Source of the DNA: Candidatus Rifleibacteriota bacterium
GTDB lineage: Bacteria; Muiribacteriota; Ozemobacteria; Ozemobacterales; Ozemobacteraceae
DNA: 37,054 bases
NCBI GenBank assembly: GCA_012517355.1
Contig: JAAYVD010000028.1
Coordinates: 1-37,054 of the forward strand
Direction: 5' to 3'
Shown: positions 54 to 36,893 of the stretch, piece by piece
Position numbering within the stretch: the stretch's first letter is position 1
How the letters are laid out: every line of letters starts with the position of its first letter
Translations under genes and position numbers: made by a program
The notes under the pieces: model-generated
What the model was told of the DNA's origin: nothing
What the model saw: only the letters and a program-made list of their open reading frames with translations
Databases searched by the model: none

Positions 54-896
54 CTAGAAATCGAAGACCTGACCCTCCGCCACCGCGAAGCAGTCGACCG
101 TGGACTTCGCCTTCTTGATGCGTTGGCGGCAAAACTCGACCTGCCGGTCGAGGTCGTCATCGGACCGGTCGGGATCGTGGTGGAACAGGCCCAGTCGCTT
201 GACTCCCGCCTCGATGGCCAGATCGGTGGCCTCGAAGAAGGTCGTGTGGCCCCAGGTGCGGGTGCGTTTGATCTCCGATTCCGTGTACTGGGCATCGTGC
301 AGGACCAGATCGGCCCCGCGGCAGAAACCGAGATACTCCTCGCGAGCCAGTCCCCCGGGATGCTGGTACCCGAGTTCGTTGTCCGTCAGGAACACGAAGG
401 TTTTTCCCTGGTTGGTCAGCCGGCAGCCGTACCCGCCGTTGGGATGGCTCAGCCGCAGGCCGTCGAAATCGTGGAAACCCACCGTCTCCAGGCGCGGGCA
501 GTCCTTGCCGAACACGAACTTCGCCCGCATGTTGCTGAAATCCACCGGGAAATACGGCGGTTCCAGCTGGTGCGCCAGGATGTTCTTGACCGACCGCTGG
601 TTCTTCGGCCCACCGTAGACATGCAGGGTGAAACGGTCGCTGTAGGCGGGAATGAAGAACGGGAACCCGGCGAGGTGGTCCCAATGGCAGTGGGTCAGGA
701 AGAAGAAGATCTCCTTGGATGCGGGCTCCTTCAGCAGGGCGTTGCCCAGCGGACGCATGCCGGATCCGGCGTCGATCACCAGGATCGCCCCCTGATCGCT
801 GCGGATCTCCAGGCAGGTGGTGTTGCCCCCGTAGCGCAAGGTCTGTGGGCCTGGCGAGGGAAGCGACCCCCGACATCCCCACACTTTGATCTTCAT
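54..896 (-). CDS. MBL-fold metallo-hydrolase
   Basis: This is a 280-residue cytoplasmic metallo-beta-lactamase-fold hydrolase. It opens with the family's typical start (KVWGCRGSLPSPGP, residues 4-17) and carries the metal-binding motif H69-C-H71-W-D73-H74. Later ligand candidates are the Asp in FLTDNE, the His in LHDAQY, the WGHTTF motif and the FHHDPD segment near the C terminus. The family includes phosphodiesterase-like enzymes related to PhnP and RNase Z, so a phosphoester substrate is likely, but the exact substrate cannot be read from sequence. There is no signal peptide. The ATG at 896 has a strong GGAGGA Shine-Dalgarno and a TATAAT promoter upstream. It is transcribed divergently from the STAND gene, which may or may not be related in function. 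Family is confident, substrate unknown. Confidence 0.9.
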   Translation of the reverse strand: MKIKVWGCRGSLPSPGPQTLRYGGNTTCLEIRSDQGAILVIDAGSGMRPLGNALLKEPASKEIFFFLTHCHWDHLAGFPFFIPAYSDRFTLHVYGGPKNQRSVKNILAHQLEPPYFPVDFSNMRAKFVFGKDCPRLETVGFHDFDGLRLSHPNGGYGCRLTNQGKTFVFLTDNELGYQHPGGLAREEYLGFCRGADLVLHDAQYTESEIKRTRTWGHTTFFEATDLAIEAGVKRLGLFHHDPDRSDDDLDRQVEFCRQRIKKAKSTVDCFAVAEGQVFDF

Positions 897-951
897 GATT
901 CCTCCACCCAGGTCACGATCTCACCAGGAACTCTCTTTCCCTATCGGCAAG

Positions 952-979
952 ATTATAACGAAATTCCCCCAACTTCCAA
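952..979 (-). promoter_or_regulatory. Promoter of the MBL hydrolase
   Basis: On the minus strand TTGGAA (974-979) and TATAAT (952-957) are separated by 16 bp. The perfect -10 lies about 55 bp upstream of the ATG at 896 in a locally AT-rich patch. Confidence 0.65.
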
Positions 980-1020
980 CAAATAATGTCACCATTCCAC
1001 CCCTCCCAACTGACCCGCCT

Positions 1021-1089
1021 CCCTTCCCACCCGCCACGCCCGAACCCCGCCCCTGCCGCCCCCTTCCCACCCGCCACGCCCGAACCCCG
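1021..1089. repeat. Two identical 29-bp direct repeats, 40-bp period
   Basis: The same 29-bp pyrimidine-rich sequence (starting CCCTTCCCACCCGCC and ending CGAACCCCG) occurs at 1021-1049 and 1061-1089, with 11 bp between. It lies 70-140 bp upstream of the STAND promoter. Only two exact copies are visible; weaker related text continues to about 1145. It could be a binding site pair or simple sequence duplication. The rest of the 897-1203 gap holds only the two divergent promoters. Confidence 0.8.
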
Positions 1090-1158
1090 ACTCCTTCTGC
1101 CCCCTGGCCGACCAGCCTCCCCACCCGGCCCTCCCGAATCCCAACGCTTCACCCTCCC

Positions 1159-1187
1159 TTTACCCACCCCCGATCCTGTGTTATACC
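1159..1187 (+). promoter_or_regulatory. Promoter of the STAND NTPase gene
   Basis: TTTACC (1159-1164) and an extended -10 TGTTATACC (TATACC at 1182-1187) are spaced by 17 bp. The expected transcription start is about 1194, so the leader would be only about 10 nt and would begin at the Shine-Dalgarno (AGGGAG, 1192-1197). Confidence 0.6.
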
Positions 1188-1203
1188 GGTCAGGGAGCAC
1201 GCT

Positions 1204-4200
1204 ATGACCAATCCGCCCGCCGAGAATAATGGGCACCACCTGCTGCAGGTCCGCCTGTATCTCTCCGCCCCGGGTCCCGCGTTGTCGGCGGTCCGCACCG
1301 AGATCGCCCGCCGTGTGCTCCCCCTGCTGCGCCGCAAGTTCGCCCGCCGGGGCATGTCCCTGGTGCTGGTCGACCCTTGCGCCGAAGGCGATCCCGCGCC
1401 CGACCTGCCCCTGGCCGACCGCCTCGACGAGATCGCACGGTGCCGCCCCTTCTTCCTCGGCATCCTCGGACCGGGCGGCGGCGACCCCGCCCCCCGCGAA
1501 GTCCACGCTGCCCTGGCCGCCCGCCACCCCTGGCTCGGCCGGTTCCGACACCGCACCATCGGCGAGATCGAGGCGGAATGCGCCATCCTCCAGGCGCCAC
1601 CGGGGGGCGGGGGAACCCTGTTCTACGCCCTCGGCAGCCACCCCCCGGCGACCGCCGCCACCACCGCCCTGACCGGCAGGGAACCTTCCCAGGACCTCCC
1701 CACCCGCCTCCGCGAGGCCGGCCTCCCCTTCCGCGACGGCCTCGCCTCGCCTTCCGCCCTCGGCGACCAGGTCTACGGCGACCTGCTCCGCCTCCTCGAG
1801 GAGGTCGCCCCCCGTCTCGACCCCGGGCCGCTCCACCACGCCGGCCTCCTGCAGGAGGCCTTCGCCGAGGCCCGCCGCGGCTGCTACCTGGCCAACCCCG
1901 CCCTCTTCCAGCGCCTCGACGACTTCGTCGAGCACGGAGGAGACCACCCCCTCCTGGTCACCGGACCCCTCGGCCGCGGCAAGTCCGCCCTGGTCGCCAA
2001 CTGGGTCGCCCATCACCGCCGCCGACACCCCGACGACCTCGTCTTGACCCATTCCTTCGAGGTCTCCGCCGAGGCCGCCACCGAGACCTTCCTCTACCGC
2101 CGCCTCCTCCATACCCTCGAGCACCGGTTCGACCTGCCCCTGTCCCCGCCCCTGACCGAGGAGTCCCTCCGCCAGGGCATCCTGGAATGGCTGTACCTGG
2201 CGGTGCCCTGGGGCCGCACCGTCCTCGTCCTCGACGGCGTCGATCTCTGGAAGGGAGAACGGGAAGGGACCACCCCCGAATGGCTCACCGCACCCCTCCC
2301 CCCCGGCCTGCGACTGATCATCACCGGCCAGACCGATCACCCCCTCGTCGCCGACCTCGTCCACCGCGGCTGCACCGTCGTCACCCTGCCACCCCTCGAC
2401 CGCCCCGACCGCCAGACCCTCCTGCAGATGAGCGCCGAAGCCCGGGGCCTCACCGACCTGCCCCCCCGCCTCGAGCGCCTCCTTCCCGAGCCCCCCTGCG
2501 CCGATCCCCTGTTCCTGAACCTGCTCCTCGATACCCTCGACATCTTCCCCCCCGCCCCCGGCGATGCCCCACGCCTCCCCCTCGACGTCTCCCCCGCCTA
2601 CGGCCCCGCCGACCTGCTCGACCTGGTGCTGGCCCGCCTCGACGAAACCTGCCTCGCCGACCGCCCCTGGGCCTGCCGCGATGCCCTGACCGCCCTCGCC
2701 TCCTCCCGGGCCGGCCTGGCCGAGGAGGAACTCCTCTCCCTCCTCGGCAACGGCGAAGACCCCCTCCCCACGCCCCTCTGGACGCGCCTCCGCCGCCACC
2801 TCGACCCCCTCCTCCTGCAGACTCCCGGCCGCTGGACCCTCGCCCACCAGGCGGTCGCCGAGGCCGTCACCCGCCGGTACCTGTTCTCCGAACAGCATGT
2901 CTTCGCCCAGCGCGAACGCCTGGTCACCCTCTTCCGGCCCGTCGACCGCGGCCCCAGGCACCTCCAGGAATACGGCTGGCAGCTCGCCGCCCAGCGGTCC
3001 TGGGAAACCCTGGCCCGCTGGCTGTCCGCGCCCGACACCTTCTCCGAGCTCGTCCTCGCCGACCACATCGAGGCCACCCGCCTGTGGCGCCTGCTGGAAC
3101 GCCATTCCCCCTTCCGCTCCCTCGAAGCCTACGCCCGCCCCCTCCTCGAACCCGAACGCCACCTGGCCTTCCTGCCCGCCCTCGCCGCCTTCCTCCGCGA
3201 ATCCGGCCTGCGCGAGAAGGCCCTCGACCTCGACCGCCGCTTCGTCCAGTACCTGCGCGGCCGCCCCATCGGCGAAGAGTCCCTCCCCGCCCTCGACGAC
3301 CTGGCCCAGAACCTGTTCCGGGCCGGCGATTTCGCCGAGGCCGAACCCCTGCTGCTCGAACTGGAGACCCGGTTCCAGGCCACCCGCAACTGGCGCGGCC
3401 TCGCCGGCTGCCGCCACCACCTCGCCATCATCGCCCATTCGCGCGGCGAAACCGAACGCGCCGGGCAGCTGTTCCGCGACGCCATGCGCCTGTTCTCCGA
3501 GGGCGGCGACGGCTTCGGCCTCGAACGCTGCCTGGGCAGCCTCGGCACCGCCCTGTACGGCCAGGGCGACCTGCCCGGCGCCCTCGCCACCTTCCGCCGC
3601 CAGGAACTGGTCGGCCGCTCCCTCGGCCGCCAGGAAGGCCTGGCCGCCGCCCTTCTCGGCCAGGCGATGTGCCACCGCGCCGCCGGCGACCTCGACCAGG
3701 CCCTGACCATGCTGGCCGCCGTCGAGACCCTCTGCCGCGAACTCGGTTCCCGCCGCACTCTCGGCACCTGCCTGAACCTCCAGGCCGCCGTCCATCGCAC
3801 CCGCGGCGACCTGTCCGGAGCCATGGCCAGGTTCCAGGAGGCCGAGGCCCTCTTCGGGGAACGGCAGGAACTGGCCGGTCTCCAGGTCTCGCTCGGCGGC
3901 CAGGCCTCCATCCACCGCTCCCGCGGCCACCTCGACGAGGCCGCCCGCCTGTTCGGCGAACAGGAGCGCATCTGCCGCATGATCGGCAGCCGCGAGGGAC
4001 TGACCATCGCCCTGGGCGGCCAGGCCGCCATCCTGCGCGAACGCGGCCGCCTCGCCGACGCCATGGAAATGACCCGCCAGGCCGAGAAGCTCTGCCGCGA
4101 CCTCTGCTTCCGCGAAGGACTGCAGCGCTCCCTCTGCCTCCAGGCCAACATCCTGCGCGACCAGGGCGACCTCGACGGCGCCCTCGCCCTGCTCCGCGAC

Positions 4201-5946
4201 GCCGAGCGCATCTGCCGCGAGATCGGCCTCAAATCAGGGCTGCAGCGCACCCTCGAACACCTCGCCATGGTCCTCAAGGCCCGCGGCGACCTCGACGGGG
4301 CCCTCGCCCTGCTCAAGGAGCAGGAGCGCCTCTGCCGCCAGCTCGGCCTCAAGATGGGCCTCCAGGCCTCGATGGGCCACCAGGCCCACATCCTCTACTT
4401 CCGCGGCGACGTGGAAGGCGCCATGACCCTGTTCCGCGACCAGGAACGCATCTGCCGCGACCTCGGCCTGCGCGACCGTCTGCAGCAGGCCCTCGGCGGC
4501 CAGGCGGTCATCTTCCGGGCCCGCGGCGACTGGACCCGCGCCTTGCTGCTCCTCGAGGAACAGGAGAAGATCTGCCTCGAAATGGGCCTCAAGGACGGCC
4601 TGCAGATCTCCCTCTACAACCAGGGCATCATCCGCCTCGTGCGCGGCGACCTCGACGGGGCCATGACCATGTTCAAGAAGCAGGAGGCCATCTGCCGCCA
4701 GGCAGGCTACCGCGAGGGGCTGCAGGCCAGCTTCGGCAGCCAGGCCGTCATCCACCGCAACCGCGGCGACATGCTGCGCGCCATGGCCCTGTTCCAGGAA
4801 CAGGAGAAGATCTGCCGTGAATCCGGCTACAAGGAGGGGTTGCAGGTCTCCCTGTGCGGCCAGGCCGCCATCCTGCAGGCCTCCGGCGATTTCGACATCG
4901 CCATGGCCAAGCTGCGGGAAGGCGAACGCATCTGCCGCGAACTGAGCCACAAGGAGGGCCTGCAGCGGGTGTTGTGCAGCCAGTCGCTGATCCTGCGCGC
5001 CCGCGGCGACAACACCGGCGCCATGGCCCTCCTCAAGGAGGTCGAGAAGATCTGCCGCGGCCTCGACTACAAGTCGGGCCTCCAGCGGGCCCTCGAATAC
5101 CAGGCCGCCATCCTGCAGGCCCAGGGCGACCTCGACCAGGCCATGGCCCTCCTCAAGGAACAGGAGGCCATCTGCCGCGAGCTGGGCATCAAGGCCGGCC
5201 TCCAGGCCGCCATCGGCCAGCAGGCCCTGCTCCTCGAGCAGCGGGGCGACCTCGACGGCGCCCTGACCCTGCTCAAGGAACAGGAGCTGATCTGCCGCGA
5301 ACTCGGCCTCAAGGCGGGCCTCGCCCGGGCCATGGCCATGCAGGCCCAGGTCATGGCCCGCAAGTTCGACCGCACCCGCGAAGCCATGGACCTCGTCAAC
5401 GAAGCCTACAAGCTCGCCCGCAGCCACGGCCTGAACACGCTTTCGTCCCAGATCCAGAACGTGCTCAACGCCGTCCAGCCCCCGGGCGGCATTCCGCGCG
5501 GCCGCCTCGAACCCGGCGACTGGAAACGCTTCCAGGCCCAGCTCGCCGAGAAGACCGCCTTCGCCCGCGACCCCGCCGACCCCCGCGCCTCGCTCGAACG
5601 ACTCCACCAGCAGGAACGCCTCTGCCGCGAACTCGACATGCCCACCGAACTGGCCAACAGCCTCGCCGGACAGGCCCTCATCATGCGCGAACTCGGCGAC
5701 GGCGAACGCGCCCTCGAGGTCCTGCGTCAGGAAGAGACCATCTGGCGCCAACAGGGCTCCCGGACCGGCCTGCTCGAATGCCTCGTCAACCAGGCCCTCC
5801 TCCTGGTCCTCGACCTGCACCGCCCCCGCGAAGCCCTCTCCCTGGCCGAGGAGGCCTACCGCCTCGGCGAGAAGCACGACCTCCCCGAACTCCCCCACAC
5901 CGTCCTCGGACAGCTCCTCGACTTCGTCCACACCCAGATCAAGTGA
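1204..5946 (+). CDS. Nephrocystin-3-like STAND NTPase (DUF4062-like / NACHT / TPR array)
   Basis: This is a 1580-residue cytoplasmic signal-transduction NTPase. Residues about 13-150 resemble DUF4062 as in NPHP3/TEP1 proteins (an RLYLSA start, a VLVD strand, then ARCRPFFLGILG), but the usual SST motif is degenerate. An NTPase domain follows with Walker A GPLGRGKSA (about 254-262) and Walker B TVLVLDGVDLW (about 339-349). Next comes a winged-helix-like segment (SRAGLAEEELLSLL) and a His-containing AHQAVAEAVTRRYL. From about residue 740 to 1400 there are roughly 16 TPR-like repeats of exactly 40 residues, then a linker and two more. STAND proteins are inactive until a ligand bound by the repeats triggers NTP-driven oligomerisation; the ligand here is unknown. 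The frame is open upstream to 886, but the ATG at 1204 has the Shine-Dalgarno and promoter. Roles could be regulation, defence or self/non-self sensing. Confidence 0.9.
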   Translation: MTNPPAENNGHHLLQVRLYLSAPGPALSAVRTEIARRVLPLLRRKFARRGMSLVLVDPCAEGDPAPDLPLADRLDEIARCRPFFLGILGPGGGDPAPREVHAALAARHPWLGRFRHRTIGEIEAECAILQAPPGGGGTLFYALGSHPPATAATTALTGREPSQDLPTRLREAGLPFRDGLASPSALGDQVYGDLLRLLEEVAPRLDPGPLHHAGLLQEAFAEARRGCYLANPALFQRLDDFVEHGGDHPLLVTGPLGRGKSALVANWVAHHRRRHPDDLVLTHSFEVSAEAATETFLYRRLLHTLEHRFDLPLSPPLTEESLRQGILEWLYLAVPWGRTVLVLDGVDLWKGEREGTTPEWLTAPLPPGLRLIITGQTDHPLVADLVHRGCTVVTLPPLDRPDRQTLLQMSAEARGLTDLPPRLERLLPEPPCADPLFLNLLLDTLDIFPPAPGDAPRLPLDVSPAYGPADLLDLVLARLDETCLADRPWACRDALTALASSRAGLAEEELLSLLGNGEDPLPTPLWTRLRRHLDPLLLQTPGRWTLAHQAVAEAVTRRYLFSEQHVFAQRERLVTLFRPVDRGPRHLQEYGWQLAAQRSWETLARWLSAPDTFSELVLADHIEATRLWRLLERHSPFRSLEAYARPLLEPERHLAFLPALAAFLRESGLREKALDLDRRFVQYLRGRPIGEESLPALDDLAQNLFRAGDFAEAEPLLLELETRFQATRNWRGLAGCRHHLAIIAHSRGETERAGQLFRDAMRLFSEGGDGFGLERCLGSLGTALYGQGDLPGALATFRRQELVGRSLGRQEGLAAALLGQAMCHRAAGDLDQALTMLAAVETLCRELGSRRTLGTCLNLQAAVHRTRGDLSGAMARFQEAEALFGERQELAGLQVSLGGQASIHRSRGHLDEAARLFGEQERICRMIGSREGLTIALGGQAAILRERGRLADAMEMTRQAEKLCRDLCFREGLQRSLCLQANILRDQGDLDGALALLRDAERICREIGLKSGLQRTLEHLAMVLKARGDLDGALALLKEQERLCRQLGLKMGLQASMGHQAHILYFRGDVEGAMTLFRDQERICRDLGLRDRLQQALGGQAVIFRARGDWTRALLLLEEQEKICLEMGLKDGLQISLYNQGIIRLVRGDLDGAMTMFKKQEAICRQAGYREGLQASFGSQAVIHRNRGDMLRAMALFQEQEKICRESGYKEGLQVSLCGQAAILQASGDFDIAMAKLREGERICRELSHKEGLQRVLCSQSLILRARGDNTGAMALLKEVEKICRGLDYKSGLQRALEYQAAILQAQGDLDQAMALLKEQEAICRELGIKAGLQAAIGQQALLLEQRGDLDGALTLLKEQELICRELGLKAGLARAMAMQAQVMARKFDRTREAMDLVNEAYKLARSHGLNTLSSQIQNVLNAVQPPGGIPRGRLEPGDWKRFQAQLAEKTAFARDPADPRASLERLHQQERLCRELDMPTELANSLAGQALIMRELGDGERALEVLRQEETIWRQQGSRTGLLECLVNQALLLVLDLHRPREALSLAEEAYRLGEKHDLPELPHTVLGQLLDFVHTQIK
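3421..5400 (+). repeat. 120-bp tandem coding repeat (40-residue TPR units)
   Basis: Repeat units start every 120 bp from 3421 (3421, 3541, 3661 and so on to 5221, with a partial unit at 5341), with no indels over about 16 units. Each encodes a variant of QAAILRARGDLDGALALLKE followed by QERICRELGLKEGLQ. Recurrent phrases such as ATCTGCCGC and CGCGGCGACCTCGAC fall at the same place in most units. This is a protein repeat array, not a CRISPR, and is a likely site of copy-number change by recombination. Confidence 0.95.
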
Positions 5947-5978: not shown

Positions 5979-6052
5979 GCCCGGCACCATGGCGGAAACA
6001 CCCCGTGGCCGCCCCGGCAGGCGGCGCGGAACGCCGGTGTCGCGCCCCGCAC
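5979..6052 (-). repeat. Dispersed multi-hairpin element, copy R1 (intergenic)
   Basis: A divergent copy of the dispersed element lies between the STAND stop and the next gene. It retains the central arm GCCGCC/GGCGGC (6008-6013 and 6020-6025). On the minus strand its frame reads RDTGVPRRLPGRPRG, matching the peptide of other copies. The match is weaker than for R2 and R4. Confidence 0.6.
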
Positions 6053-10756: not shown

Positions 10757-11021
10757 CTCGCCCGTTCTCCCCCTTCCCCGCTTCCCCTATTCCTCTCCTT
10801 GCCCCTTCCTTCCTCTCTCACTCGCCTTCCCCTCTTCCTCTCCTGGCTCCTTCCGTCCTCTGCCTCCCCGTTTCTCCCTCCTTGTCTATCCCCCCCGGAT
10901 CACGCCCGTCGCCGTCCGCTCCAGAACCAACGCTCGCCCGTTCTCCCCCTTCCCCGCTTCCCCCCCTTCCTCTCCTTGCCCCTTCCTTCCTCTCTCACTC
11001 GCCTTCCCCTCTTCCTCTCCT
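10757..11021. repeat. Pyrimidine-rich spacer with a duplicated segment of about 88 bp
   Basis: The 10636-11082 gap holds no credible gene. After the palindromes it is almost pure C/T on the plus strand. The segment at 10757-10844 recurs at 10933-11021 with two substitutions and one indel. Open frames here encode only Pro/Leu/Ser-rich low-complexity peptides. On the minus strand the tract is purine-rich. Confidence 0.85.
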
Positions 11022-11082
11022 TCCCCCATCCTAGCTTCCTTCCCTTCCCCTCCCCCCTCATCCTCTCCGGCTCCCTTCATTC

Positions 11083-11799: not shown

Positions 11800-11938
11800 G
11801 GTCAAGTCCTCCTGTGGAATCGATTGGGATGGGATGAAAACAGGTCGGCGGCGATACCGCCGGTCACCGGGAAAGGGACGGGTACGGACGGCGACCGGAA
11901 GGGAACGGGCTCCCTCCCGGTCGCGCGACCGGCCCCGA

Positions 11939-12015
11939 CCGACACGATGTCGGCAACACCCCTTTGCCGCCACGGATGGCGGCGCGAAACCCCAGTTTCG
12001 CGCATCGCAAGGGGG
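11939..12015 (-). repeat. Dispersed multi-hairpin element, copy R2 (intergenic)
   Basis: This is a well-preserved intergenic copy. It has CCGACA-CGA-TGTCGG (11939-11953), then outer arms CCCCTTTGC and GCAAGGGGG that enclose GCCGCCA-CGGA-TGGCGGC and GCGCGAAAC-CCCA-GTTTCGCGC. The minus strand stays open in the same frame as the coding copies (RETGVSRRHPWRQRG, then DIVSVG). It lies three bases before the DUF1015 stop codon complement, in the DUF1015-TPR gap. Confidence 0.85.
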
Positions 12016-13314: not shown

Positions 13315-13343
13315 ATTCTAAGAACGGTGGCCGGCCTTGTCAA
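13315..13343 (-). promoter_or_regulatory. Consensus promoter of the DUF1015 gene, inside the upstream CDS
   Basis: TTGACA (13338-13343), a 17-bp spacer and TAGAAT (13315-13320) form a near-perfect sigma-70 promoter. It lies wholly within the last codons of the SpoIIE gene; the -10 contains that gene's TAG stop and the -35 overlaps its Val-Asp-Lys codons. The leader would be about 50 nt. Confidence 0.85.
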
Positions 13344-16300
13344 CCCTCCCGGAACCCGCCGACCCGCGCGCCACGGCATCCGGAGCCTGTCCCCGAGCCC
13401 CCCCCTGCCTGCCGACCGGCGGGTCTCCCCCGGCCCCCGGCTTCCCCGCTCCGTCACCCGGCGTCGGCGGACCGGCGGCCGGCTCCCCCGGTACCCCCGG
13501 CTCGAAGTGGGCCACCACGAAGGTCACGTCGTCGTCCCAGTCCCAGCGGGCCGTCGCCTGGTGCACGAACCGGAACATCCGTTCGACCGCCCCGTCGAAG
13601 CCGGCCGCCGCCTCTCCCGACAACGCCTTCTCCAGACGGGGATACCCGATCGACGTGCCGTCGGGCCCCATCGCCTCGACCGCCCCGTCGGTGAACAGCA
13701 CCATGGACCCGCCCGGTCCCACCACCCGGTGCACCTCCTCCACCCGGCTGTTCTTGACGGTGGCCAGCGGCATGCTGGGCAGCAGGAAGCTTTCGCATCC
13801 GCCCCCCGGCGACACCACCAGCACCGGCGTATGTCCGGCATTGGCCACCTGGAACTCCCCGGTGCGGGTGTCGATGCGTATCACCTCGCACGTCATCATC
13901 CGCACACGCCGCAGGAACTCCACGAGATGGCGGTTGAGCCCCGTCAGCAACCCCTTGGGCTCCCGCTCCCCGAACGACAACAGGATCCGGAGACCGGTGC
14001 CGACCATCACCATGACCAGGGCGGCCGCCAGCCCGTGCCCCGACACGTCCCCAATGCAGACATAGACCACGCCTTCGTCTTCCGGGTCCGGGATGATGTC
14101 GAAATAGTCCCCCCCGACCTGCTCCATCATGATCGACCGCCCCTGGATCGACACCCGCTCCCGCCGGAACACCCCCTGCGGCAGGAGCCGGTTCTGCAGG
14201 TGCCCGGCCACGTCGAGTTCCTTCAGGCTCTCCAAAACCAGGGTGAACAGGACCGCCAGCTCCCCCCATTCCCCGATCGCGTTGCGCACCGGAACTGGCG
14301 GCGCCCCCGGCCGCCCCAGCTGCCGGGCGAACACCATCAGGTCGAGGATCGGCTCGAACAAAAACCGCCGCAGAACCTGGGCGAAAAAGCCCAGCACCAC
14401 GGCGAGGCCCAGCAGAATGCCTCCCAGCGAGCGCCGCCGGCCGATCTCCGCGGTCGCCAATTCGCCCACGGGCCGGGCCGCGCCCAGTACATACAGCCCG
14501 AACTCGTCGCTGGTCCGCACGAAAACCCAGCGCCAGGTGCCGTCGGGGAATGCCGCCACCAACTTCCGGCTCTGGCCCCCCATGCGCAGGTCCCCCGCCA
14601 GCCGCTTCACTCCCCGCGGCAAGGCCACCGTCGAAAGGTCCGGCACCTCGAGGGCACGGGCGAGCAGGAACAGATCCACCCCCGCCCCCCGCGGCGCGGT
14701 TCCCCTGCCCGCGACCGAAACGAGTTCGGCCATTCCCCCCGGCCGCCACGGCCGGCGGCCCGAACCACCCGTTTTGCCCATGGCAAGGCCGTCCTGCCAC
14801 ATCTGCCGGATCAACCGCCACGCCGCCGGGAACAGCAGGTCCGTGTCCTTCCAGTGCAGCATCACGAACAGGCCCGCCCGCCCGTCCGGCCCCGGCAGCA
14901 CCTCCAGCATCTCCAGCACCCGGTCCCGCAACGAGCCGATGGCCGCGATCCTGCCCAGATGGTCCCAGATGTAGCCCATCACGTCCTCGGGATCCATCCC
15001 CCCCATCGACGAGGCGAAGGCCCCCACGTCGACTTTCGGCCCCCCCGCCACACCCCCGCCCCACCCGTGTTCTTCGTCCCACCGCCGGCAGATCTGCCGG
15101 GCGATCGCCCCCATCCCCTTCCGCAACATGGCCTCGGATGAAGGCACCGGTCGCTCCCGCCGGTCCGCGCGCAGAAACCCCTCCAGCCATCCCCGCCATC
15201 GCGGATCGGCTGCCGACCAGGGCGCACCCATCAACCCCAGGTAGTAGGCGTTGGTGGAGGCGCCGTCTTCGAGGAACCGGGCCAGGACCGGCACCCGACG
15301 GGCCGGAGGCAACCCGGCCACGAACACGAACACCGACCGGTATCCCTGGTGGCTGGGCAGCAACTGCTCCCCTCCCGGGGTGACCAGGTGGGCGATGGCG
15401 ACGTGATATCTTCGCTCGAGGTCGTCCAGACCCCACAACATCGCTTCGGAAGCCACTTCGGGCCGGTATCGGAACCGCCTCAGGACCTCCCGCATCCGGG
15501 CTTCCTGCCGCCTGACCTCCGCCCGGAAGACCGCCTCGGGACGCTCGGTCTCCTGGGCGAGTCCCCGGAACGTCTCCGGGATCTCCCCCGCCACCCACGC
15601 ATCGATCTCCAGCTCCCCGACCAGCAGGACCCCGAACAAGGGAAGCCCCACCGCCGGAAGCAGATGCAGACCCACGCGGCGGCTGATGGTGGCCACCCAG
15701 ACGGTCTCCCCCGCCACCAGCGCCCGGTAGGTCCCCACCAGCCAGGCCAGGCTGCAGCAGAACCAACCCAGATACCCGATCGGGCCCCACAGGGCCAGGG
15801 GCCAGGGAAGCCGCCCACTGACCCCGAGATCGCCCGCCGCATCGCGCACCACCAGGGTCAGGCCCACCGTCCCTCCCGCGCGCCAGACCCGTTCCTCCGG
15901 CGGCCGCTCCCCCTCAACGTCCTCGCCGGCCGCCGCCCTTCGAAACCGGGCCCGGAACAGGCGGTCCGGCCCCCGGAACGCCTTCATGCCCCGCCGCACC
16001 ACTCCCAGCCAGGCCCGGTCGAGGACCACCGGCCGCATCGCCGACGGATCCGCCAACACCAGGTAGCCGTCGGCCGCCGCCACGGAGCCCGGCGCGCCCC
16101 CCGTTTCCCCCATCCAAGGGACGCCGTCTGCCGGGCCTGGCCCGACAGGTCGGCCGCCGATGCGGCCCCAGGCGCACCAGACGCCATTCCGGCCGAGCGG
16201 CAGCCGGAACCAGGCATGTTCCTTCCGCGCCTCCCCGAAAACCGACAGCGGCAGGTCACCCCACCCGGCGAACCGGACCACCCCCTCCGCCTGGGCGATC

Positions 16301-16878
16301 TCCCCCTGCCGACCGGTGACCAGAACCCGTACCAGGTCGGCCGGGGTCAACACCCCGGACGCAGGCGCCGCCCAGGTGCCTTCCTGCATTCTCCCGGCGA
16401 GGAACGGGACGGGCCCCGCCGCCCCGGCAACCCTCGCGGTCTCCAACCACCGCGGCCCCATCCCCGCCCGGTCGAGGGCACGCCAGACCTGTTGCCGCCA
16501 GGAGTCCAGGCCAAGGCCGCGGGCCCGGCCGCGCAGGTGCGCCCAGACCACCCCCCGCTTGCGATCCTCCCGGCCCAGCTGCCGGGCAACCTCGGCCTGG
16601 TACCGGAGCCGCTCGCGCAGCAGGTCCAACCCGGTCCGCTCCCGGCCCGCGGCGGCCTGCCGCAAACCCACCAGCAGCAGGAAGGCGAGCGGGGCCCAGG
16701 CGCACAGGGCCAACAACCACCACCCGCCCAACCCCAGGCCGCCCGCGCCCGCGCCGCCCGACGTCAGGTTGGCCACCGGCGGAACGGTTGGCCCGGGGGA
16801 ATGGCTCGCCACGGGCGTTTCCCCCCGCCCCTCGGGGCGGCCAGAGGCCCCTGCCGCCGTGGAGTCGATCGGGATCAT
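13318..16878 (-). CDS. Membrane-anchored SpoIIE/PP2C phosphatase A
   Basis: This is a 1186-residue sensor phosphatase. A membrane segment at about 48-68 is followed by a large sensor region, further hydrophobic segments near 365-390 and 405-425, another long extracytoplasmic-like region, and a last membrane segment near 820-840. The C-terminal PP2C domain (about 895-1150) has VGGDYFD (near 919), GDVSGHG (near 942), NAGH, FTDG (near 1061) and WDDDVTF (near 1112), so all metal-binding acidic residues are present. Such enzymes dephosphorylate Ser/Thr-phosphorylated anti-sigma antagonists or similar partners; no partner is encoded here. The start overlaps the stop of phosphatase B (ATGA, 16875-16878), so translation is coupled. 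Residues about 696-721 derive from the dispersed hairpin element. Confidence 0.93.
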   Translation of the reverse strand: MIPIDSTAAGASGRPEGRGETPVASHSPGPTVPPVANLTSGGAGAGGLGLGGWWLLALCAWAPLAFLLLVGLRQAAAGRERTGLDLLRERLRYQAEVARQLGREDRKRGVVWAHLRGRARGLGLDSWRQQVWRALDRAGMGPRWLETARVAGAAGPVPFLAGRMQEGTWAAPASGVLTPADLVRVLVTGRQGEIAQAEGVVRFAGWGDLPLSVFGEARKEHAWFRLPLGRNGVWCAWGRIGGRPVGPGPADGVPWMGETGGAPGSVAAADGYLVLADPSAMRPVVLDRAWLGVVRRGMKAFRGPDRLFRARFRRAAAGEDVEGERPPEERVWRAGGTVGLTLVVRDAAGDLGVSGRLPWPLALWGPIGYLGWFCCSLAWLVGTYRALVAGETVWVATISRRVGLHLLPAVGLPLFGVLLVGELEIDAWVAGEIPETFRGLAQETERPEAVFRAEVRRQEARMREVLRRFRYRPEVASEAMLWGLDDLERRYHVAIAHLVTPGGEQLLPSHQGYRSVFVFVAGLPPARRVPVLARFLEDGASTNAYYLGLMGAPWSAADPRWRGWLEGFLRADRRERPVPSSEAMLRKGMGAIARQICRRWDEEHGWGGGVAGGPKVDVGAFASSMGGMDPEDVMGYIWDHLGRIAAIGSLRDRVLEMLEVLPGPDGRAGLFVMLHWKDTDLLFPAAWRLIRQMWQDGLAMGKTGGSGRRPWRPGGMAELVSVAGRGTAPRGAGVDLFLLARALEVPDLSTVALPRGVKRLAGDLRMGGQSRKLVAAFPDGTWRWVFVRTSDEFGLYVLGAARPVGELATAEIGRRRSLGGILLGLAVVLGFFAQVLRRFLFEPILDLMVFARQLGRPGAPPVPVRNAIGEWGELAVLFTLVLESLKELDVAGHLQNRLLPQGVFRRERVSIQGRSIMMEQVGGDYFDIIPDPEDEGVVYVCIGDVSGHGLAAALVMVMVGTGLRILLSFGEREPKGLLTGLNRHLVEFLRRVRMMTCEVIRIDTRTGEFQVANAGHTPVLVVSPGGGCESFLLPSMPLATVKNSRVEEVHRVVGPGGSMVLFTDGAVEAMGPDGTSIGYPRLEKALSGEAAAGFDGAVERMFRFVHQATARWDWDDDVTFVVAHFEPGVPGEPAAGPPTPGDGAGKPGAGGDPPVGRQGGARGQAPDAVARGSAGSGRVDKAGHRS
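14715..14790 (-). repeat. Dispersed multi-hairpin element, copy R3 (inside phosphatase A)
   Basis: This in-frame copy lies within the second sensor region of phosphatase A. Arms are CCGAA-N5-TTCGG (14715-14729) and GGCCGCC/GGCGGCC (14741-14747 and 14754-14760). The encoded peptide GKTGGSGRRPWRPGG, then ELVSVA, matches the other copies in frame. Confidence 0.7.
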
Positions 16879-19800
16879 GCCCCACCACCCTTCATGGTCA
16901 GGACCAGCAGGGTCCGGTCATCCTCCTGACCGCCGCCAGGCTTGGCGCTGATCCGCCCGGCCAGGGTCCGGACGAAGGCGTCGGTGTCGGGCTGATAACT
17001 GGCTGCCACCAGGCCGGCAAACACCTCGTAGGCATCCTGCCCGGCTTCCACCGGCAACCCCTTGATCCATCCGTTGGAAAAAAAGACCACGACGTCACCC
17101 GGCTGCAGATCGCGACTCTGGCTGGCGTAGTCCCTCGCGGTCGGACTGCCCAGGGGGGGCTGGGAACCCTGCCACCAGGCCGGTCGCCCGTCGCGCAGGT
17201 GCAGGGGCCAGCAGCCGCCGGCGTTCGCCCACGACAGCCGGCGCCCGGCTTCCTCCCAGTTGGCCACCAGCAGCGCGAAATGCCGGCCCTTCCCCCCGAC
17301 CCTGGCCAGGTGCCCGTTCAGACAACCCAGCATGCCCGCGGGATCCCGTTCCCGCTCCCCCACCAGGCGCAGCCCCAGCTTCGCCCTGGCTCCCAGCAGG
17401 GAGGCATCGACCCCGCTCCCCGCAACGTCTCCCAGGCACAGCAGCAACCGGCCCGGCTCCGGCCGCCAGACCTCGCTGAAATCGCCACCCAACAGGCCGG
17501 CCGCCTGGAAGCGGCCCTCCACCCGCACCGCCCCCGCCTCCATCGTCCCCTCGAACACCAGCGTCTTCTGCACCGGCACCGCCGAAACGATCTCCGACAG
17601 GGTGTGGGCCGACCGCTGCAACCCCGCCGCCAACGCCCCGAACTCGTCGGGCTCCGCCACCGGCCCCATCTCGAACTCCCGCCGCCGCAACCGCTCCAGG
17701 GCGCGCTCCAGCCCGCCCAGCCGCCGCGCAAAGAAACCCGCCAGCAGGTAGGCCGCCCCCACCGCGAACCCCAACAGAACCAGCAGGACCCCGACCGCCG
17801 TCGCCCGGAGCCGCTCCGCTCCTGCCAGAACCGGCCCGAGGGGGACCGCCCCCACCAGCAGCCGTTCCGTCAGCCGCTGGCAGGGCAGGACCGTGACCAG
17901 CCAGGACCGCCCCCCACCACTCTCCACCACCCCGTCCGCCGCCTGCTGCGAGCGGTTGGCCCGGTCGCACAAGGCCTGCAGCCGCGTATCCAGCAGCAAC
18001 CGCTCCGGCCGGCTCCACATCGGACCGCCCGCGCCCATCCCCACCAGCCCGACCCGGAACCCGCCCACCGGCCCGCCATCCGCCATCGGCGCGGCCCCCC
18101 GCCGCCGCGCCCCGATCGCCCGCAGGTACACCTGCTTGAGACTGGTCGACCCCACCACCATCGCCACCAGATACCGCCGCCCCCCCGATCCCACTGATCC
18201 GGCGTCGGCCATGCCCCCCGGCCGCGACGGCTGGCCGGCCGGAACGGTCGTGCCCCGCCCCGCGCGGGCGCCGACCGACACGATGTCGGAAGTGCCCCTT
18301 TGCCGCCACGGATGGCGGCGCGAAACGCGCGTTTCGCGCAGCGCAAAGGGGCCCTCCCCCAGCGGTTGGATGAGGACATGGAAATCCCGTCCGAATCCAC
18401 CGAGCGACGCGATCCGCCCCATCTGCCGCGACATCGCCCGCACCTGCCCCTGGGCGAAGGCGTAGTCGACCGCCGGGTCCCCCGTCCGCTCCGGCGTCGG
18501 GAACCCCTGCCGCAGACGCTCGATGTTCCGCACCAGGGCCCCCACCAGCGCCCGGTCCCGCTCCGGGTTCCGCAGCTTCCCCGTCGACCCCCACTCCGCC
18601 GTCCCCGTGGCGTCGAAGACCCAGGCGGCACTCACCACGTCGTCCAGCCGCAACCCCGGCCAGGAGCTTCCCACCAGGGTTTCCGCCAGACCGGCCGGGT
18701 GCGCCGCCCCGCGCGCCACCGCCCGTTCGATCGCCCGCAGCATCTCCTCATACCCATGGTCCACTCCCGCCAACCGGCTCTCCACCTGCCGGTGGGCCTG
18801 CCACCGCATCCGCTCACCGGCCTCCCGGCCGAACCGGTAGGCGCCCGTCGCGAACACGGCCATCGCGGGCAGCGTCACCCCCAGGATGCCCATCCCCACC
18901 ACCGTCTGCAGAGAGACCCGGCCCAGCGTGCCCCGCCACCAGCTCCACCCCAGCCCCAGAACGCCCAGGGCCAGCACTCCCCATCCCGCCCGCTCACCCC
19001 AGGTCAGCAGCGCGAGACGACGGCCGAGGTCAGGGGGAACGCCACCCTGGCGGCGAAGGGCCGCCACCCCCCGCTCCCCCAGCGCCTGAACCTCGATCTC
19101 CTCCCCGGGATGCCGGCCCTCCAGGACCCGCCGAACCGTCTCCACCGCCCCGCGCACCAGCCCGGGATCATGCTCCCGCACCAACCGGTCCAGGTCGTCC
19201 CCCGCGAACCAGTCCAGGGAATGGGAAGCCCGGATCCGTCCGCGGAACTCCTGCAACCGCCGGTCGAACAGCGCCTTCTCCCCGGCTTCGTCCCGCTTGA
19301 CCAGCAACAGAACCTGCCTGACCCCGCCCGGTCCCCCGCCCCCCGTTGCCACCCCGGCCGCCCTCCCCACCGTGCACCAGGCGGCATGCGAATACCGCCC
19401 CCGCCCCTGCAGCGGCACCATCGTCCAGGGGGCCATCGCCACGTCCTCCAGCACCTTGGGATGCTGGAAGAACTGGCGCGACAACCGGTTCAGCCACGCC
19501 CCCGTCTCCCCCTTCCGCGAGGCCACCAGCCCCCGACGGACCTGTTCCGACAAGGCCCGGAACTCACCCGGGAAACCCGGGACCATCACCCGCCGCCCCG
19601 CCCCGTCGAAGAACAAGACCAGGAAAGGATGGTCACCGCTCCGCAACCGGGTGAAGGCCGTCGCCAGAGGCATCCCCCGCCGGTACCGGTCGGCGGCCCG
19701 CCGCAGCAGGTCGCCCCCGTAGGTGGCAGGGAAGGCCGTCCGCCGCAGGTTCAGCAGCATCAGGGTCAGGTCCTCCCGCTCCCGCGCCCGCCAGTCTTCG

Positions 19801-19928
19801 AACCACCCGGTGGCCACCGACCGGCACCACCCGGCCAGCCCCAGCATCGGCAGCACGAGGAACAGCAGCAGGCCGACCGCCAGGTGCCCCGCGGCCCACC
19901 GGTCCAGTCCCCGGGCCTCCCCGGTCAT
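16875..19928 (-). CDS. SpoIIE/PP2C-like protein B with degraded active site
   Basis: This 1017-residue protein has the same plan as phosphatase A: a membrane segment (about 14-36), a periplasmic region, a hydrophobic pair near 310-370, a second sensor region, a membrane segment near 695-720, a HAMP-like linker (FEMGPVAEPDEFGALAAG), and a PP2C-like domain. In that domain LGGDFSEV and EDDRTLL are kept, but GDVxGHG reads GDVAGSG, NAGH reads NAGG, and the metal-binding TDG reads SNG (Asp to Asn). It is therefore probably inactive or altered and may regulate its partner A, whose start overlaps its stop by 4 bp. The ATG at 19928 follows a G-rich ribosome-binding stretch; a TTG at 19988 is a longer alternative. 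Residues about 525-578 hold two copies of the dispersed element. Confidence 0.88.
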   Translation of the reverse strand: MTGEARGLDRWAAGHLAVGLLLFLVLPMLGLAGWCRSVATGWFEDWRAREREDLTLMLLNLRRTAFPATYGGDLLRRAADRYRRGMPLATAFTRLRSGDHPFLVLFFDGAGRRVMVPGFPGEFRALSEQVRRGLVASRKGETGAWLNRLSRQFFQHPKVLEDVAMAPWTMVPLQGRGRYSHAAWCTVGRAAGVATGGGGPGGVRQVLLLVKRDEAGEKALFDRRLQEFRGRIRASHSLDWFAGDDLDRLVREHDPGLVRGAVETVRRVLEGRHPGEEIEVQALGERGVAALRRQGGVPPDLGRRLALLTWGERAGWGVLALGVLGLGWSWWRGTLGRVSLQTVVGMGILGVTLPAMAVFATGAYRFGREAGERMRWQAHRQVESRLAGVDHGYEEMLRAIERAVARGAAHPAGLAETLVGSSWPGLRLDDVVSAAWVFDATGTAEWGSTGKLRNPERDRALVGALVRNIERLRQGFPTPERTGDPAVDYAFAQGQVRAMSRQMGRIASLGGFGRDFHVLIQPLGEGPFALRETRVSRRHPWRQRGTSDIVSVGARAGRGTTVPAGQPSRPGGMADAGSVGSGGRRYLVAMVVGSTSLKQVYLRAIGARRRGAAPMADGGPVGGFRVGLVGMGAGGPMWSRPERLLLDTRLQALCDRANRSQQAADGVVESGGGRSWLVTVLPCQRLTERLLVGAVPLGPVLAGAERLRATAVGVLLVLLGFAVGAAYLLAGFFARRLGGLERALERLRRREFEMGPVAEPDEFGALAAGLQRSAHTLSEIVSAVPVQKTLVFEGTMEAGAVRVEGRFQAAGLLGGDFSEVWRPEPGRLLLCLGDVAGSGVDASLLGARAKLGLRLVGERERDPAGMLGCLNGHLARVGGKGRHFALLVANWEEAGRRLSWANAGGCWPLHLRDGRPAWWQGSQPPLGSPTARDYASQSRDLQPGDVVVFFSNGWIKGLPVEAGQDAYEVFAGLVAASYQPDTDAFVRTLAGRISAKPGGGQEDDRTLLVLTMKGGGA
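18195..18262 (-). repeat. Dispersed element, divergent copy R5 (inside phosphatase B)
   Basis: A second, degenerate copy lies next to R4. It encodes GTTVPAGQPSRPGG then GSVG in the same frame as the other copies. Compared with R4 its hairpin arms are mostly lost, so it is probably older. Confidence 0.5.
18275..18351 (-). repeat. Dispersed multi-hairpin element, copy R4 (inside phosphatase B)
   Basis: This is the best-preserved copy. CCGACA-CGA-TGTCGG (18275-18289) is followed by outer arms CCCCTTTGC (18295-18303) and GCAAAGGGG (18343-18351). These enclose GCCGCCA-CGGA-TGGCGGC (18302-18319) and the 22-bp near-perfect palindrome with arms GCGCGAAACG/CGTTTCGCGC (18318-18339). It is read in frame as RETRVSRRHPWRQRG then DIVSVG, inside the second sensor region of phosphatase B. 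Confidence 0.9.
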
Positions 19929-20277
19929 CGCCCGCCCCCCCCCTTCACCCGGGCCCCGGCATGGTTCCACGGCCGCCTCTGTCGCCAATGGCCATGAAAT
20001 CGGTCGTTCCCCGTGATGCCGGCGGGATCGTCACCATGGATGAGGCAACGCAGGCGCGGCCGGGACCCCGGTCCCCACCGCCCACCAGGCTGCCGGCGGC
20101 TTCGGCCTGCCGGCGGCGGCAGCGCCCGGGCCGCCCTGGATTCCCGACACGATCGGCGCGGTGACCCGCCCGGAATGACCGGCCCCACGTGAAGATTCCC
20201 TCCAATCCATGGCCGGCCCCACCGCCCACCCGAACCGGGCGCATTCTTCGCAACTGCGGTATCATGGGTACCATAGT
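19929..20277. other. Divergent intergenic region between two phosphatase operons
   Basis: This 349-bp gap separates the B-A and C-D phosphatase gene pairs. It has a -10-like TATCAT for the plus-strand pair near its right end. I see no clear promoter for the minus-strand pair and no credible small gene. CCGACACGATCGG near 20135 recalls the first hairpin of the dispersed element, but the rest of the element is absent. Confidence 0.6.
20260..20265 (+). promoter_or_regulatory. Putative -10 of phosphatase operon C-D
   Basis: TATCAT lies 12 bp before the ATG at 20278, the same hexamer as at 6122. No good -35 and no Shine-Dalgarno are seen, so a leader of only about 5 nt is expected. Confidence 0.35.
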
Positions 20278-27917: not shown

Positions 27918-28002
27918 CCGGCCGACACCATGCCGGAAGGGCCACCCTTCGCTGCCACCGAGGGCGGCACGCCACGCCCGTTCCGCCCACCGCAAGCGGG
28001 GC
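27918..28002 (-). repeat. Dispersed multi-hairpin element, copy R6 (intergenic)
   Basis: This copy sits between the permease promoter and the 244-residue gene. The first arm has changed to CCGGC/GCCGG (27918-27922 and 27932-27936), still able to pair. The region corresponding to the other arms is recognisable (CCCTTCGCTGCCACC, then GGGCGGCACGCC) but imperfect. Confidence 0.65.
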
Positions 28003-28017
28003 CGCCCGCCACCGCCC

Positions 28018-28752
28018 CTACCAGCGCCGCGGAAACCCCATCGCCTGCCACAACCGCCAGGCCGCCGGGCTGCGCACCATCGGGTCGGGGTGCGCCCGCA
28101 CCTTCTCCCAGGCGTTGTGGGCCCACACCACGTCGCGGGCGATGTCGTCGCGCACGTCGGTGAAAAGATCCCGCAGCATCCCCGCCTGCCGGCCCAGGAT
28201 CCGCAGCCGCTGCTCCTTGGACCGGCCGCGCAACCGGTAGTCGCGCAGGATCTCCTGCCCCCAGTCGGCCGACGAGAACCCCGCCGGCAGCCCCTCGTCG
28301 AGCCGGTCCTCGTCGCGTTGCGGCCAGTCGCCCTTCAACATCCCCATCGCCGCCTTCACGCCGGCCAGGTTCATCCGCACCAGCAGCAGGTCGGGCCGCG
28401 CCACCCGGCCGATCTCCTGGCACCGCGACCAGTGGGGAAAAGACTCCCCGACCGGAGGCGGCTGCAGGATCCGCCCGGTCCTCTCGAGATCCTTCAGGGC
28501 GTTCTCCATGTCCTTTTGCACCGACCGGACCAGCACCTGGAGGTCGGAAGCCACCCACACCGGCTCGGGAAAGCCCCCCCAACGGATCCGGAACCCCCAA
28601 TCGGCCGCTCCTGCGCCAACTCCGCCGAGCAGCACCCAGCCAAGAAGGGCGGCGATCAGGGCCGCCGCCCCTCCCCCCCTTCCGACCGGCACGAGGTCGG
28701 ACACACCCCCGTGCCGCCACGGAAGGTGGCGCGAAACGCAGGTTTCGCCCAT
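28018..28752 (-). CDS. Exported protein of unknown function with element-derived N terminus
   Basis: This 244-residue protein has a hydrophobic signal-like segment at about 29-50 (AAALIAALLGWVLLGGVGAG), preceded by 28 residues that come from dispersed-element copy R7 (GETCVSRHLPWRHGG). The mature part is mostly helical and charged (VLVRSVQKDMENALKDLERT, RDVVWAHNAWEKVRAHPDPM), with no family I recognise. The only ATG is inside the element; GTG codons at residues 17 and 21 are alternatives and also lie in the element. It follows the TPR gene by 31 bp and is the last gene of the FecR-TPR operon, so a role in the same envelope process is inferred. Confidence 0.65.
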   Translation of the reverse strand: MGETCVSRHLPWRHGGVSDLVPVGRGGGAAALIAALLGWVLLGGVGAGAADWGFRIRWGGFPEPVWVASDLQVLVRSVQKDMENALKDLERTGRILQPPPVGESFPHWSRCQEIGRVARPDLLLVRMNLAGVKAAMGMLKGDWPQRDEDRLDEGLPAGFSSADWGQEILRDYRLRGRSKEQRLRILGRQAGMLRDLFTDVRDDIARDVVWAHNAWEKVRAHPDPMVRSPAAWRLWQAMGFPRRW

Positions 28753-28765
28753 TGCCGGAGGGCCG
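28682..28765 (-). repeat. Dispersed multi-hairpin element, copy R7 (5' end of a gene)
   Basis: Arms CCGACC/GGTCGG (28682-28687 and 28695-28700) show a compensated change relative to CCGACA/TGTCGG in R2 and R4. GCGAAAC-GCAG-GTTTCGC lies at 28731-28748. The ATG of the 244-residue gene (28750-28752) is within the element. Confidence 0.8.
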
Positions 28766-36589: not shown

Positions 36590-36893
36590 CCCCCCCCCGG
36601 CGAAGGCCGGTCGGCAGACCTCCCCGGGGAATGCGCTCTTCCTTCCGCGCTTATGCCCGTCGGAAATACGACCCTGCGCTCAGTACAAGTATTGGGAATG
36701 GAAGATACGTGACGTCTCACCCCACATGGGCGCTTCGAATCCGCTTCCTGTTCGTTGGGCCAGCGCTTTGCCTGCGGCTTCCTTCAGATTCCACCTCGCG
36801 GTGGACACCTTGCCATCCGGTTCGTGATTCTCCTTGTCGGGCTCCCAGAGGACTTGAACCTCATTAAGGAAGTGCGCCCAACCGGGCGCACAC
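36590..36893 (-). ncRNA. Group II intron 5' fragment (domain I)
   Basis: The minus strand starts with a GTGYG-type intron end and a GTGCGCCC/GGGCGCAC stem (36872-36891). It continues with blocks I recognise from ORF-bearing group II introns: GGTGTCCACCGCGAGGTGG, AATCTGAAGGAAGCCGCAGG, GTCGTATTTCCGACGGGCAT and CATTCCCCGGGGAGGTCTGC. It breaks off near 36590, next to the TPR promoter. No intron-encoded protein is present, so it cannot splice or move by itself. A short open frame across it (36680-36895) is not a real gene. Confidence 0.75.

Follow-up and report, generated by a model that had tools for sequence, protein, structure and literature searches.

How does a DNA palindrome come to be read as part of a sensor protein? 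The question arises at protein B, which is encoded in a 37,054-nucleotide stretch of DNA (here called the window) from a Candidatus Rifleibacteriota bacterium of an Ozemobacter lineage. A reading of this stretch from the sequence alone had placed two repeat copies, R4 and R5, side by side within protein B, translated without a break in frame, and had likened them to the Rickettsia palindromic elements (RPEs), which add peptides to proteins. The answer reached here, with a probability of about 0.9, is that a nonautonomous, selfish palindromic repeat has proliferated in the Ozemobacter lineage and that two adjacent units of it have lengthened protein B.

A palindromic repeat of 81 nucleotides

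The repeats in the window belong to a family found as palindromic family D5, the copies of which were scored by nhmmer (Table 1). The 81-nt consensus unit, CCGACCGACACGATGTCGGAAGTGCCCCTTTGCCGCCACGGATGGCGGCGCGAAACGCCAGTTTCGCGCATCGCAAAGGGG, consists of a head hairpin, CCGACCGACACGATGTCGG, and a three-way junction of two stem-loops closed by GCCCCTTTGC/GCAAAGGGGC; its predicted structure is a 6-bp head hairpin with a closed three-way junction. Compensatory double changes were counted in 22 cells, compared with 8.1 in shuffled data (at most 15 in 300 shuffles), a number inflated by kinship among the copies; this is evidence that base pairing in the repeat has probably been maintained. How are the units arranged? 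Spacings of 81 nt (31 cases) or 84 nt (9 cases) dominate between neighbors on the same strand, and the repeat therefore forms arrays head to tail. Its ends are sharp, with CCGACC on the left and CC[GC][AT]CC, after GGGG, on the right. The unit thus begins with, and precedes, similar hexamers, which could mediate tandem growth by recombination. A search of Rfam gave no significant match to the repeat.

Table 1. Protein B and the copies of the repeat located in the window
Feature	Position	Strand	Description
Protein B	16875..19988	-	Host gene of the insertion; encodes a membrane sensor with a SpoIIE phosphatase (PF07228) at its C terminus
Repeat unit R5	18271..18351	+	Young copy inside protein B; head hairpin at 18271-18289 and three-way-junction body
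Repeat unit R4	18190..18270	+	Old, diverged copy inside protein B, in exact tandem register with R5
Copy inside protein A	14712..14788	+	Diverged; host is a SpoIIE sensor (ORF 13318-16878, minus strand)
Intergenic copy	11936..12012	+	Near consensus
Intergenic copy	5981..6052	+	Diverged
Copy at the boundary of genes A and B	16804..16871	-	Weak, 25.7 bits
Intergenic copy	27920..27995	+	Weak, 36.4 bits
Copy at the 5' edge of minus-strand gene 28018-28704	28683..28756	+	57.8 bits

Two units inside protein B

Positions 18190 to 18351 hold exactly two tandem units, amounting to 162 nt or 54 codons, read from the minus strand. The span first proposed, 18195 to 18351, was right at its end and should have started at 18190. 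R5 is identical to the family consensus at 78 of 81 bases. R4, which sits exactly one 81-nt period upstream of R5, agrees at 51 of 81, a score reached at none of 381,877 background positions (background maximum, 49). Folded as RNA, R5 reaches -49.0 kcal/mol (z = -3.69), and R4 folds no better than its own shuffles. Read on the minus strand in phase with the protein B open reading frame, both units are free of stops, in the order ...GPFALRETRVSRRHPWRQRGTSDIVSVG then ARAGRGTTVPAGQPSRPGGMADAGSVG. The peptide of R5 is ALRETRVSRRHPWRQRGTSDIVSVG, that of R4 is ARAGRGTTVPAGQPSRPGGMADAGSVG, and ...RETRVSRRHPWRQRGTSDIVSVG... is a stretch of the insert. The consensus matches and this stop-free reading confirm that two adjacent copies are present and open in frame.

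The same peptide frame had been claimed for two further copies. It is found in the protein A copy, with the peptide AMGKTGGSGRRPWRPGGMAELVSVAG, and the claim holds in part for the copy at 28683-28756, where the frame is the same, the support being partial because this copy lies at the 5' edge of its gene and the start is uncertain. SpoIIE sensor proteins have undergone a very large expansion in the genome from which the window comes, and several stand side by side in the window (A, B, and two on the plus strand).

The insert occupies a turn between two strands in the second sensor domain. Does it form an exposed loop? An AlphaFold2 model of protein B, built from 8 divergent sequences, has a pLDDT of 57.7 and a pTM of 0.34. 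In it, the insert (residues 526 to 580, counted from a model-based start at 19928) is mostly coil, with pLDDT values of 22 to 46 (22 to 36 over most of it) that are the lowest in the protein. Strands are predicted near the start of the insert (529 to 535) and after it (585 to 591), along with one short strand at 548 to 551. The model, which had been proposed as a check, agrees with an exposed loop in showing coil there, but its confidence is too low to prove one.

Empty sites in homologous proteins

As the check proposed with the original reading predicted, homologues without exactly this segment exist: all 15, from three Ozemobacter genomes, lack the 162 nt. Excising exactly 18190 to 18351 leaves ...FHVLIQPLGEGSGGRRYLVAMVV... 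and makes the alignment gap-free at the site against 12 of the 15, with a one-residue gap against the three closest homologues. Excision also raises the BLASTP score of protein B against one homologue, L010, from 177 to 188 bits. A gap-free alignment after a deletion of exactly 162 nt marks the segment as an insertion, placed in a loop that connects two strands. For protein B itself there is no close orthologue with an empty site, since these homologues are either paralogues or distantly related orthologues and none exceeds about 33% identity.

Conserved enzymes also carry inserts. The L-aspartate oxidase NadB (contig C71, 92803 to 94665) has an insert with three tandem heads at 94088, 94148, and 94229. 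Its orthologues in the two congeners, Candidatus Ozemobacter sibiricus BY5 (G001) and an Ozemobacteraceae MAG of a sister species (G002), are 77 to 78% identical over residues 6 to 400 and lack the insert. The NadB insert (C71, 94088 to 94228 and on) is itself a mixed array: one 60-nt and one 81-nt unit, plus a third head. An SDR epimerase (contig C169) contains one unit that is absent in both congeners, and about 5 residues are still extra after its excision. The reciprocal case is a G002 protein, which we take from its motif to be CsaB-like; it has two 60-nt units that are missing both from the O. sibiricus orthologue, 85% identical, and from the window genome. The clean empty sites in conserved enzymes, together with this reciprocal case in the sister species, support an RPE-like process. 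No orthologue of an epimerase-like host gene on contig C127 (785 aa) was found in the genus. Pfam domains of the other host proteins mostly exclude the inserts, the exception being a copy inside the span of a GAF match in a kinase/GAF protein (2246 aa).

Abundance and range

In 1.18 Mb of the window genome, sampled mostly as long contigs chosen among those with matches, there are 148 copies (125 per Mb), and the reversed-sequence control gave 0. Across all 7.1 Mb of the genome (69% GC), the head hairpin alone gave 475 matches when up to 2 mismatches were allowed, and the control gave 2. Where do the copies lie? By gene calls from a self-built codon model with repeats masked, genes hold only 25 of the 148 well inside them, while 87% of the DNA is coding, a strong depletion.

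No 81-nt unit was found in G001 or in any of 21 further genomes from the order; G002 gives partial matches. At 39 places this sister species has a 60-nt relative of the unit, which shares its head but has a shorter body. At least one 60-nt unit is also present in the window genome, within NadB. An exact 32-nt pattern had no match among contigs of other GTDB species, a collection from which records near the window genome may be missing. The repeat family is lineage specific.

Reading frame and selection

One of the six frames accounts for 18 of 31 intragenic events (P = 2e-7). Among those on the opposite strand, 18 of 21 are in this preferred frame (P = 1e-6), a bias within one strand that a strand preference does not explain. 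Stops were rejected as its cause, each frame being open in 93 to 100% of intergenic copies. The rarest three intragenic frames (same0, opp1, and opp2) encode cysteine and a net charge of +5 to +7, compared with +3 for the preferred frame. In G002, most intragenic copies of the 60-nt variant likewise yield a peptide of the preferred frame (...RHPWRPRPTSDLVSVG). Most simply, units insert in any frame and those in harmful frames are then lost; both the frame bias and the placement in loops would then come from selection after insertion, not from targeted insertion.

Are the added peptides of use to the host? The ratio of synonymous to nonsynonymous codon changes is 13:53 for copies within genes, compared with 67:204 for intergenic ones, which gives no excess of synonymous change in the former, and the repeat peptides show no sign of purifying selection. 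The inserted peptides are tolerated, not evidently functional, and we infer that protein B still works. It is conceivable, if doubtful, that the repeat is adapted to coding DNA, with genes as an additional habitat in a large genome: its unit lengths of 81 and 84 nt, and of 60 nt in the sister species, are all divisible by three, stops are lacking in almost every one of the six frames, and a single peptide frame persists even where the body has been exchanged. If so, the family would represent a lineage of coding-compatible selfish DNA with an evolutionary origin separate from that in Rickettsia.

Origin of the insert

How might protein B have acquired its 54 extra residues? A palindromic 81-nt repeat has very probably multiplied in the genome, most of its copies surviving between genes, and two units lie adjacent in the strand-strand turn of the second sensor domain, where the added residues probably form a disordered loop. 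The insertion simply lengthened the protein because a unit equals 27 codons and is usually stop-free in any frame. The repeat was presumably moved by an enzyme acting in trans. Among 60 nontandem copies, target-site duplications and flanking direct or inverted repeats do not exceed chance, and no transposase linked to the 81-nt repeat was found; the case for mobility therefore comes from the distribution of the copies only. A RAYT was rejected as the mobilizer, the only Y1_Tnp gene found being flanked by different palindromes. That RAYT-like Y1 transposase, L049 (G000:C109:4387-4713), has its own flanking palindromes, GAGTTCCGGGGACATGATACCGAA, unrelated to the 81-nt repeat. Tandem neighbors share 15 derived changes where 7.7 are expected, which fits a contribution of local duplication or gene conversion to the spread.

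Could the segment instead be ordinary conserved sensor-domain sequence, its DNA similarity to other copies produced by codon bias at high GC? The open frame and the base composition of the genome would fit, but the 15 homologues lack it, the same DNA is mainly intergenic, on both strands and in several frames, and the reversed-sequence control is empty. The alignment and the intergenic copies refute this idea, which retains practically no probability. An expansion in place, with a single inserted unit in protein B that was later duplicated locally or copied by gene conversion, would account for the exact 81-nt period, for the commonness of tandem pairs, and for the excess of changes shared by neighbors. 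It is nevertheless unlikely, as R4 and R5 are far apart in age, judging by their 51 and 78 matches to the 81-nt consensus, and the unit stands at hundreds of unrelated sites; such growth could add a second unit and cannot account for the first.

What of domestication, with the peptide, or an RNA or DNA hairpin, kept because it modulates the sensor, the mRNA, or the nucleoid, and copies in genes thus selected? The strong preference for one frame, its retention in the sister species with a different element body, and the maintained pairing all speak for it. Against it, host proteins are unrelated, copies are strongly depleted from genes, genic copies have no synonymous excess and decay similarly to those outside, and purging of harmful frames predicts the frame bias equally well, the rarest frames being those with cysteine and higher positive charge. 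Domestication is therefore very unlikely, and the spread of a selfish repeat remains the preferred account of the insert.

Comparison with known palindromic repeats

RPEs (Ogata et al. 2000) are many-copy palindromes of Rickettsia, about 100 to 150 bp long and folding into stem-loops with terminal inverted repeats; some lie in frame in unrelated genes, where they encode a recurrent peptide that is tolerated (PMC10969869, PMC3767692, PMC2229807). The Ozemobacter repeat behaves likewise, lying in frame in several unrelated protein genes and being absent from orthologues, and the likeness drawn by the sequence-only reading is thus supported. It differs in host, a GC-rich Riflebacteria genome instead of the Rickettsiales; in size, at 81 nt (84 nt in a variant, 60 nt in the sister species); and in shape, having a three-way junction and a separate head hairpin in place of stem-loops with terminal inverted repeats. 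It is RPE-like in behavior and not an RPE by taxon or size.

Other families come close as well. GTAG/CGTC REPs are hairpins of 20 to 40 bp with the tag GTAG or CGTC at one end, often paired as head-to-head dimers, and intragenic examples were reported in 2013 from O. terrae, Thauera, Thioalkalivibrio, Xanthomonas, and R. conorii (PMC3733652). Single or clustered, these encode up to 82 residues, and the CGTC type has no dedicated transposase (PMC3733652). Like them, the Ozemobacter palindromes are mostly intergenic, with some in frame in conserved genes, but they are multi-arm 81-nt units in head-to-tail arrays rather than short tagged hairpins. Neither GTAG nor CGTC occurs within the consensus unit, CGTC appearing only in the variable 3' flank, and no tyrosine transposase gene flanked by the same repeat, as for RAYT-mobilized REPs, was found in the searched genome. 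Bacterial MITEs, too, have fused to open reading frames in enterobacteria and Neisseria (PMC2229807), including ERIC/RU-1, RU-2, RU-3, and the 107-bp Correia element; terminal inverted repeats are present in most of them and target duplications in many (PMC2229807, PMC2759123). The Ozemobacter repeat resembles them as a small, nonautonomous repeat with frames fused to host genes; it differs in that neither terminal inverted repeats nor target-site duplication was seen in the 60 nontandem copies.

Is such a process notable outside the Rickettsiales, as first suggested? The RPE-like behavior holds, but as a claim of novelty this was too strong, because intragenic REPs had already been reported (PMC3733652). 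What is new is the repeat family, its three-way-junction structure, and its Riflebacteria setting, not the process itself. No earlier report of the element was found in the literature searched, which had most subscription papers outside its reach. That a selfish palindrome lengthens proteins in RPE-like fashion in a phylum with large genomes, and one that has been little studied, argues against tying the process to genome reduction or intracellular life, and the natural insertions make up a test set for how proteins tolerate new segments.

Other features of the window

Rfam family RF02001 (group II intron D1-D4-3) is matched over its full length at 36634-36805 on the minus strand (102.9 bits). 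A TPR protein with about 15 repeats of 120 nt (40 codons) is encoded at 886-5946 on the plus strand, and two pyrimidine-rich direct repeats of 86 nt, 86% identical to each other, lie at 10769-10854 and 10946-11031.
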